Of a stretch of DNA of 64,000 bases, positions 28,134-29,826 are shown one piece after another. This stretch comes from Ilumatobacter nonamiensis YM16-303. GTDB taxonomy: Bacteria > Actinomycetota > Acidimicrobiia > Acidimicrobiales > Ilumatobacteraceae. The stretch is from positions 1 through 64,000 of the forward strand of contig NZ_BAOL01000020.1 of the NCBI RefSeq assembly GCF_000350145.1. The letters are read 5' to 3'. The position numbers and the translations under genes were made by a program. The notes under the pieces were generated by a model. The model had not been told where the DNA came from. It was given only the letters and a program-made list of their open reading frames with translations, and did no database searches. How positions within the stretch are numbered: the stretch's first letter is position 1; each line of letters opens with the position of its first letter.

Positions 28134-28145
28134 GATCCCATCATG
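28131..28145. promoter_or_regulatory. Palindrome holding two divergent start codons and -10-like boxes
   Basis: CATGATCCCATCATG has 6-bp arms around CCC. The left arm contains the start codon of the minus-strand YjbR gene and, on the plus strand, CATGAT at exactly -12 to -7 of the selenoprotein ATG (28143). The right arm mirrors this. Both mRNAs could be leaderless from one overlapping divergent promoter. Confidence 0.45.
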
Positions 28146-28811
28146 GTCGATTCATCGGATGTGTACGAGCCGATCCTCGGATTGCGGCGCGGCGGGAGCG
28201 CGGTCGTGTTGCTCACGTATCGCGGCGATTGGTGACCGTACTGCTGTGGCCAGCTCGTGAAGCTGGCATCGGTGAGTGACCGGATCCATCAGGCGGGCGC
28301 GGAGATCATCGCGATCAGTGTCGACTCCGACGAGCGGAACGCGGCGATGCTCGAGCGTTGGCCGATTCCGAACGTGTTGTACGTCAGCGACCCCGGTGGC
28401 GAGACATATTTGAAGCCGATGGACATGTTCAACCCGGAGGACCGCGACGGGATCGCGCTGCCCGGGCTGTTCGTGATCGACCCCGACGGGAACGAGGTGT
28501 TCGGATACCGGGGACGTGACTACGCGGATCGCACTCACGACGACGATCTGATCGATGTGCTCGACGGCCTCGGGCTCGACCCGATCGACCCGCCGGCGGG
28601 TGGTCCCGTGGTCGAAGGAGTCGACGTGGATCAGCGGGGTGCGTTCACTCCGCAGATGTTCGGCCCGTACTTCCGAGGGAACATGTTCGGTGCGGGCGCG
28701 ATCGGCAGCCGTGCCGAAGGGGACGAGGCGCGCAGCCTCGCTCGTGAGCACCGCAAGATGGCGCAGTCGATGCTGGAGGCGTGGGGCGAGGTCAAACGCA
28801 GCGGAGAATGA
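28143..28811 (+). CDS. Redoxin (AhpC/TSA-like) selenoprotein with in-frame UGA as selenocysteine 31
   Basis: Read through the TGA at 28233-28235, this frame gives a 222-aa thioredoxin-fold protein: 30 residues ending LTYRGDW, then Sec31, then PYCCGQLVKLASV. W-U-P-Y-C is the Sec form of the W-C-P-Y-C site of peroxiredoxin-like proteins, with C34 as resolving Cys. Downstream the fold continues normally (EIIAISVDSDERN, GLFVIDPDGNEVFGYRGRD). A hairpin at 28249-28267 fits a bacterial SECIS element. Without readthrough, the only start is GTG 28257, which lies in the hairpin loop and loses the active site. The C-terminal 50 residues are family-specific. Predicted to reduce peroxide or disulfide substrates. 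It is probably co-transcribed with the oxygenase 22 nt downstream. Confidence 0.85.
28233..28267 (+). promoter_or_regulatory. Selenocysteine UGA and predicted bacterial SECIS hairpin
   Basis: TGA 28233-28235 is followed after 13 nt by a perfect 7-bp stem, GCCAGCT (28249-28255) with AGCTGGC (28261-28267), closing a CGTGA loop. The loop starts 20 nt past the UGA and has G at its second position, which fits the known bacterial SECIS rules (apical loop roughly 16-37 nt downstream, G in the first two loop bases). The hairpin lies inside the coding sequence, as required for SelB-guided decoding. Confidence 0.8.
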
Positions 28812-28833: not shown

Positions 28834-29826
28834 ATGCTCGGGACCGTGGGCGGCGAGATCGTGCTGAACAGCTTCGATCTCTCTCCGTTCGCGACCGGCG
28901 CCGACCTCTCATCGGAGGCTGCGCGTCGCACCGCGGGTCTGATCGACCAGACGCTGTGCGAGACCGGCTTCCTCCTCGTCGACGGACACGGTGTTCCCGA
29001 TGAGATCCGCGCGGGGTACTTCGCAGCGATGCGCGAGTTCTTCGCCCTCCCGGAGTCCGACAAGGAGGCGATCGCGATCGGGCTCTCGGACTGCCACCGG
29101 GGTTACGTCGGTTTCGAGACCGAATCGCTCGATGGGATGGCGGGCGATCTGAAGGAGACGCTCGACACCGGGATCGACCACGCTCCCGATCATCCCGAGG
29201 TCGTCGCGGGGACACCGCTCCACGGTCCGAACCAGTGGCCCGATCTGCTCGGTTTCCGAGAGGCGGTGGAGGCCTACCGCGAGGCGATGATCGAGGCGGT
29301 GCTGCGGATGCAGCGGGCGATGTCGATGGCGCTCGGCCTCGATCCGTTCTTCATCGAGGGACAGCCGGGCGAGCCGATGTACCACCTGCGGCTGATCCAC
29401 TATCCGCCGATGGAAACGGTCACGCCGGAACCGGGGCAGCTCGGCTGCGGGGCGCACACGGACTACGGCACGCTCACCTTGCTCGCGGACGACGGCAACG
29501 GTGGGCTCCAGGTGTGCGAGCGGTCGGGGGAGTGGGTCGACGTGTCCGTCCCGCCGGGCAAGCTCGTCGTGAACCTCGGTGACCTCATGGCGATCTGGAC
29601 GAACGACCGGTGGGTGTCGAACCCGCACCGTGTCGTGAACCCGCCCGGTGTCGACCGGTACTCGTCGCCGCTGTTCGTCGAGCCGGCATTCCATCTGGAG
29701 ATCTCGGCGATCCCGACGTGCGTGCCAGCCGGGGAGCCGCCACGGCACGAGCCGATGGTGACCGGGCCGTATCTGCTGTCCCGCTTCGACGGGACCCACA
29801 GCTACCGCAACGAACTGCTTCGGTGA
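28834..29826 (+). CDS. 2-oxoglutarate/Fe(II)-dependent dioxygenase, isopenicillin N synthase family
   Basis: 330 aa with the DIOX_N domain (about 1-120, ETGFLLVDGHGVPDEI) and the C-terminal double-stranded beta helix. Iron ligands are H and D of GAHTDYGTL and H of NPHRVVN; the 2OG-binding Arg is in DRYSSPLF. Substrate unknown; close families oxidise small amines, purines or plant-hormone-like molecules. A second family member is at 50794-51837. ATG 28834 lies 22 nt after the selenoprotein stop and the O-methyltransferase follows 12 nt after its own stop, suggesting an operon. Confidence 0.88.
   Translation: MLGTVGGEIVLNSFDLSPFATGADLSSEAARRTAGLIDQTLCETGFLLVDGHGVPDEIRAGYFAAMREFFALPESDKEAIAIGLSDCHRGYVGFETESLDGMAGDLKETLDTGIDHAPDHPEVVAGTPLHGPNQWPDLLGFREAVEAYREAMIEAVLRMQRAMSMALGLDPFFIEGQPGEPMYHLRLIHYPPMETVTPEPGQLGCGAHTDYGTLTLLADDGNGGLQVCERSGEWVDVSVPPGKLVVNLGDLMAIWTNDRWVSNPHRVVNPPGVDRYSSPLFVEPAFHLEISAIPTCVPAGEPPRHEPMVTGPYLLSRFDGTHSYRNELLR

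Follow-up and report, generated by a model that had tools for sequence, protein, structure and literature searches.

A probable selenocysteine-containing UxxC redoxin with an in-frame UGA and a covarying SECIS hairpin in Ilumatobacter nonamiensis and other Actinomycetota

The window analysed here is a stretch of 64,000 nucleotides (contig NZ_BAOL01000020.1, positions 1 to 64,000) from the draft genome of Ilumatobacter nonamiensis YM16-303, which comprises 4.28 Mb in 399 contigs, is 99.6% complete and is referred to as G000. On its forward strand, the reading frame beginning at ATG 28143 meets a single TGA at codon 31, situated between W30 and P32-Y33-C34, and stays open beyond this codon up to the TGA stop at 28809-28811. 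Coordinates and translation agree with a preceding sequence-only reading, which had proposed a selenoprotein gene at this position. The features of the locus are as follows:

28143..28811, plus strand: gene of a very probable selenoprotein, a 222-residue UxxC redoxin of the AhpC-TSA/Redoxin fold (homologues, fold, PF00578 score)
28233..28235, plus strand: in-frame UGA, the presumed Sec31 in GDW-U-P-Y-C (TGA or Cys in every homologue examined)
28242..28244, plus strand: TGC codon of Cys34, which pairs with Sec31 in UxxC (invariant alignment column)
28249..28267, plus strand: bSECIS hairpin with a 7-bp stem and a CGUGA loop (compensatory changes at three pairs, invariant loop GU)
28461..28463, plus strand: codon of Pro107, which stands where ResA-type oxidoreductases have their cis-Pro and peroxiredoxins an Arg (3c71/2cx3 alignments; 16/17 sequences)
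28650..28808, plus strand: two helices that extend the C-terminus (residues 170-221; unaligned to any Prx structure)

The start codon is uncertain and could be either ATG 28143 or GTG 28161, since no obvious Shine-Dalgarno sequence was seen before the gene and only 9 nt separate its start from a divergent yjbR-like gene. A third candidate, GTG 28257, opens a 184-aa ORF that lacks the active site, just as had been described, and this is the product which a standard gene caller would be expected to list. That it represents the true product is, from our point of view, hardly conceivable, as the first strand is missing together with the active site, and as the Pfam score for AhpC-TSA (PF00578, cut-off 26) falls from 55.4 bits in the read-through protein to 26.2 bits, which is barely at the cut-off. 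In addition, this GTG is the codon of Val39 and lies inside the loop of the SECIS hairpin, and TGA forms of the gene almost always keep its Val, which Cys forms do not. We therefore rejected this start. The read-through protein also matches Redoxin (PF08534) with 45.3 bits (cut-off 26.6).

The TGA is retained at the same codon by independent assemblies that share 50-70% protein identity, and all of the named relatives carry it (65-66% identical; uncultured Ilumatobacter and Acidimicrobiia assemblies). Within the order, the redoxin gene was found in 13 of 397 genomes, 12 times with TGA and once with Cys. It also occurs in further lineages of the phylum and family samples, and the non-redundant set across Actinomycetota holds 49 genes with TGA and nine with Cys at the site. 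Two genomes, G517 and G452, were left out of the TGA forms because they encode Cys at the site and have their TGA at another place. The proposed comparison of position 31 thus returned nothing other than TGA or Cys. A TGA placed at the codon of an active-site Cys, together with its conservation among relatives, carries the observation well past what chance would give. Purifying selection acts on the part that follows the TGA, with pN of 0.18-0.32 and pS of 0.49-0.72 downstream of the UGA against ten relatives.

A pseudogene or a sequencing error, with the TGA as a true stop or a miscalled Cys codon, might be suspected in a genome of 399 contigs, the more so as a minority of orthologues does encode Cys. 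This explanation is, however, refuted by the conservation of the TGA in independent genomes at the identities given above, and the purifying selection, the compensatory changes in the hairpin and the complete Sec machinery leave it a negligible probability. Instead, the apparently stop-broken gene very probably encodes a working redox enzyme with a selenocysteine in its active site.

The distribution of the redoxin gene is patchy, and it is missing from several close relatives. In a tree with a midpoint root only, a Cys clade is nested inside the TGA forms, a topology that would fit an exchange between Sec and Cys. Both kinds of paralogue reside together in G657 (L064/L088) and G741 (L087/L068), two drafts in which selA was not found. 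In G211 (L036/L042) and G691 (L085), truncation or an abrupt loss of similarity suggests a frameshift past the Sec site, which may be attributed to either assembly error or decay. The TGA homologue L057 of G562 is divergent, with RGDF-U-TYC in place of RGDW-U-PYC, and has lost both the Trp and the Pro of the motif. A plasmid search returned distant redoxins only.

The sequence-only reading had named selA, selB, selD and tRNA-Sec (selC) as genes to be sought in the same genome, and all four were found. Adjacent selA and selB genes lie on contig C299 (415.6 and 275.3 bits, both above cut-off), selD on contig C82 (368.6 bits), and a tRNA-Sec with the anticodon TCA (UCA) on contig C307 (63.2 bits, gathering score 47). 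The SelB-wing_3 profile (PF09107) was matched in this genome and the SelB-wing_2 profile (PF09106) was not. The selD gene (L020, G000:C82:3853-4770) has an in-frame TGA of its own at the usual Sec site (GAG-U-GCKLAPGEL), and so has a formate dehydrogenase alpha gene (L091, G000:C386:45-1925; NRT-U-HAPS, with the motif U-H-A-P). Sec is therefore, as far as can be predicted, used elsewhere in the genome, and the supposition that the organism decodes Sec is borne out by the full machinery and by these further genes.

The redoxin and selA also occur together across genomes. When phylogeny is ignored, selA is present in 12/12 TGA-form genomes of the order versus 222/385 others (p = 0.0016), and in 28 of the 31 TGA-form genomes of the phylum versus 201/365 others (p = 5e-5). 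Four TGA-bearing genomes, in which selA was not found, are drafts of 82-93% completeness in 180-710 contigs (G647, G657 and G741 from the phylum sample, G859 from the family sample).

One could further imagine that a variant code or general readthrough places Cys, Trp or another residue at the UGA, which would likewise keep the frame open past it. However, the gene itself terminates with TGA, the neighbouring W30 is encoded by TGG, a dedicated tRNA-Sec(UCA) is present along with SelA and SelB, and the local hairpin covaries. We consequently rejected this explanation as very improbable.

The hairpin consists of the arms GCCAGCT (28249-28255) and AGCTGGC (28261-28267) around the loop CGTGA (28256-28260). 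It begins 13 nt after the UGA, with its loop 20 nt away and G at loop position 2, so that the perfect 7-bp pairing and the spacing noted earlier could be confirmed. Taken alone, it is only suggestive: counted over both strands, the window holds 1,522 TGA trinucleotides, and a comparable perfect 7-bp hairpin follows 15 of them, about 1%. The case therefore rests on comparison. Across the window's clade (23 sequences), base pairing holds in 95.7% of the stem cells, versus 9-46% in slid control structures. Seven cells at three pairs are doubly compensatory (G-C to A-U, C-G to U-A and G-C to C-G) where 2.0 would be expected, and none of 500 shuffles reached seven. L031 is instructive: a codon of its 5' arm has changed from Leu to Ser, and the 3' arm carries the matching change. 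The loop residues G34/U35 (alignment columns) are invariant in these 23 sequences. This GU is supplied by the GUN codon of Val39, which is kept in 47/49 TGA forms versus 2/9 Cys forms (p = 4e-6).

The window hairpin is also more stable than synonymous recodings of the same peptide (z = -2.5, p = 0.010). Relative to such recodings, hairpins of TGA forms are more stable than those after Cys codons (Mann-Whitney p = 0.0007), the latter being no more stable than their recodings, and in some individual sequences (L069, L075) hairpin stability is weak. Other lineages have an AGCU-GGUC-AGCU hairpin instead of the type with the CGUGA loop. Its pairs are invariant in alignment A5 and hence carry no covariation evidence, while the structure is consistent. 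With its GGUC, the loop presumably resembles that of E. coli fdhF.

The locus and its genome hence combine what is expected of a bacterial selenoprotein, namely an in-frame UGA at the position of a redox-active Cys with Cys/Sec homologues, a bSECIS with a conserved loop G and stem covariation, and selA, selB, selD and tRNA-Sec. The selenoprotein reading stood up to each in-silico test, and those refuting conditions of the sequence-only reading that were run all spoke for it. On these grounds we infer, with high confidence, that 28143..28811 encodes a selenoprotein and that Sec is inserted at its codon 31.

As to the protein, AlphaFold2 (five sequences; pLDDT 82.8) predicts a Trx/Prx core up to about residue 143, followed by two long helices (170-190 and 194-221). 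Together with the AhpC-TSA/Redoxin matches, this agrees with the thioredoxin-like fold that had been proposed. The closest PDB entries in Foldseek are peroxiredoxins, mostly over the core only. In the alignment to the peroxiredoxin 2cx3, Sec31 corresponds to the Prx-motif Thr/Ser, Cys34 to the peroxidatic Cys and Pro107 to an Arg, which we take to be the catalytic one. In the alignment to ResA (3c71), Sec31 and Cys34 fall on the CxxC and Pro107 on a Pro, presumably the cis-Pro. As such, the redoxin has Sec31 where a classical peroxiredoxin has Thr/Ser three residues ahead of its peroxidatic Cys, and Pro107 where that enzyme has its catalytic Arg, ahead of the last core strand. It does show the features of the Prx-like thiol:disulfide oxidoreductase selenoproteins, that is PF00578/PF08534 scores above cut-off and a UxxC motif.

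Since Sec31 occupies the Thr/Ser position and Pro107 the Arg/cis-Pro position, a selenol/thiol:disulfide chemistry would be favoured. The protein could also act mainly as a peroxidase, that is as a Sec/Cys34 peroxiredoxin and not as a disulfide oxidoreductase. The fold, the nearest PDB neighbours and the alignment of Cys34 with the peroxidatic Cys of 2cx3 all point in this direction, and Sec favours peroxide chemistry. Nevertheless, a TxxC/TxxU motif is absent and the residues at positions 31 and 107 are not those of a peroxiredoxin, Pro107 being shared with ResA, so that a peroxidase appears rather unlikely to us. The label 'peroxiredoxin-like' hence stands for the fold, whereas for the function the active-site residues argue for a thiol:disulfide oxidoreductase. 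The redoxin is best read as a putative UxxC selenol:disulfide oxidoreductase that is extended at its C-terminus by two helices.

Selenoproteins of this general kind are well established. Catalogues have included UxxC Prx-like selenoproteins (PF00578/PF08534) since 2005-2008, the GOS paper reported 225 Prx-like 1 and 68 Prx-like 3 UxxC sequences (PMC2398784), and a 2026 inventory of 119 prokaryotic selenoprotein families or subfamilies includes a Prx-like thiol:disulfide oxidoreductase (PF00578, UxxC), a Redoxin family (PF08534, UxxC) and a cd02970 Prx-like protein (UxxS) (PMC13188914). Actinobacteria are likewise known Sec users, as exemplified by Rubrobacter xylanophilus with five selenoproteins (PMC1794560). 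The premise that peroxiredoxin-like selenoproteins use UxxC sites is thus sound (PMC2398784, PMC13188914), and the description of the gene as unreported-looking holds in part: neither the gene nor the subfamily was found in the literature searched, where no paper on selenoproteins in Acidimicrobiia turned up either, but UxxC Prx-like and redoxin selenoproteins as such are established (PMC2398784, PMC13188914).

With Prx-like 1 (PF00578, GOS), the redoxin shares the Pfam fold, UxxC and a single Sec (PMC1794560, PMC2398784, PMC13188914), and by description it is set apart by its occurrence in Actinomycetota, the motif GDWUPYC[CN]xQL and the helical C-terminal extension. With the Redoxin family or Prx-like 3 (PF08534), to which we liken it by description, it shares UxxC and the Redoxin match (PMC2398784, PMC13188914). 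The cd02970 selenoprotein has Sec in a Prx-like fold as well, but its motif is UxxS instead of UxxC; the Cys homologue L025 of the redoxin is of the RGDWCPYC type. No fitting NCBIfam model was found, the best match (38.4 bits, cut-off 120) being a weak one to the SelL-related redox protein (NF040769), far under what membership demands. ResA/TlpA oxidoreductases share W-C/U-P-x-C and the cis-Pro position, whereas the redoxin has Sec and C-terminal helices, and no signal sequence or membrane anchor was seen in it.

We regard the redoxin as a further member of an already known selenoprotein kind, in which it perhaps forms a new subfamily. More specifically, one could speculate on a distinct, undescribed and Actinomycetota-centred subfamily with its own helical C-terminal domain, a SECIS-dictated Val39 that relaxes on Sec-to-Cys reversion, and two SECIS apical architectures: in the Acidimicrobiia-type clade a 7-bp stem would carry the five-base CGUG loop, and other lineages would have a bulged stem capped by an E. 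coli-like GGUC tetraloop. We consider this reading, taken as a whole, possible and stop just short of favouring it.

As regards mechanism, the decoding machinery, the conserved UGA, the covarying SECIS, the purifying selection, the fold and the active-site residues are seen in the sequences, whereas Sec insertion, substrate, electron donor and a role of the C-terminal helices are what we infer. SelD would supply selenophosphate, from which SelA would make Sec-tRNA(Sec), and SelB would bring the latter to ribosomes at the UGA of codon 31, positioned by the hairpin 13 nt downstream. The product would be a cytosolic Trx-fold redoxin of 222 residues in which Sec31-Pro-Tyr-Cys34 acts as a selenol/thiol pair. 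Sec31 would attack a disulfide or peroxide-type substrate, Cys34 would resolve the intermediate to a selenenylsulfide, and the redoxin would be regenerated by a donor of the thioredoxin or mycothiol type.

Directly downstream of the selenoprotein gene lies a DIOX_N/2OG-FeII_Oxy oxygenase gene (28834-29823, plus strand), a linkage that is not kept in relatives. Context is shared partially and in single relatives only, on the upstream yjbR-like/nuoN side in L072 and for a downstream O-methyltransferase in L077. A conserved operon was rejected, as the neighbours are not common to the loci, and gene context therefore yields no substrate clue. A similar-looking oxygenase is found at about 50.8-51.8 kb of the window. 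Just upstream of this 2OG-Fe(II)-oxygenase-like gene, the frame of which extends to 51837, a xanthine riboswitch (NMT1, RF03054; 50722-50775, plus strand) was matched with 41.6 bits (gathering 36), and it may mark a purine-degrading oxygenase.

Overall, Sec decoding is common in Acidimicrobiia and other Actinomycetota, with selA in 234/397 genomes of the order and 229/396 of the phylum. The same redoxin occurs in dozens of related bacteria, where it is probably truncated or missed by routine annotation. As the family comprises both Sec and Cys versions, which coexist even within the single genome G657, it offers a natural test set for the contribution of Sec, and it is also suited to study how a SECIS within the coding sequence constrains protein evolution.
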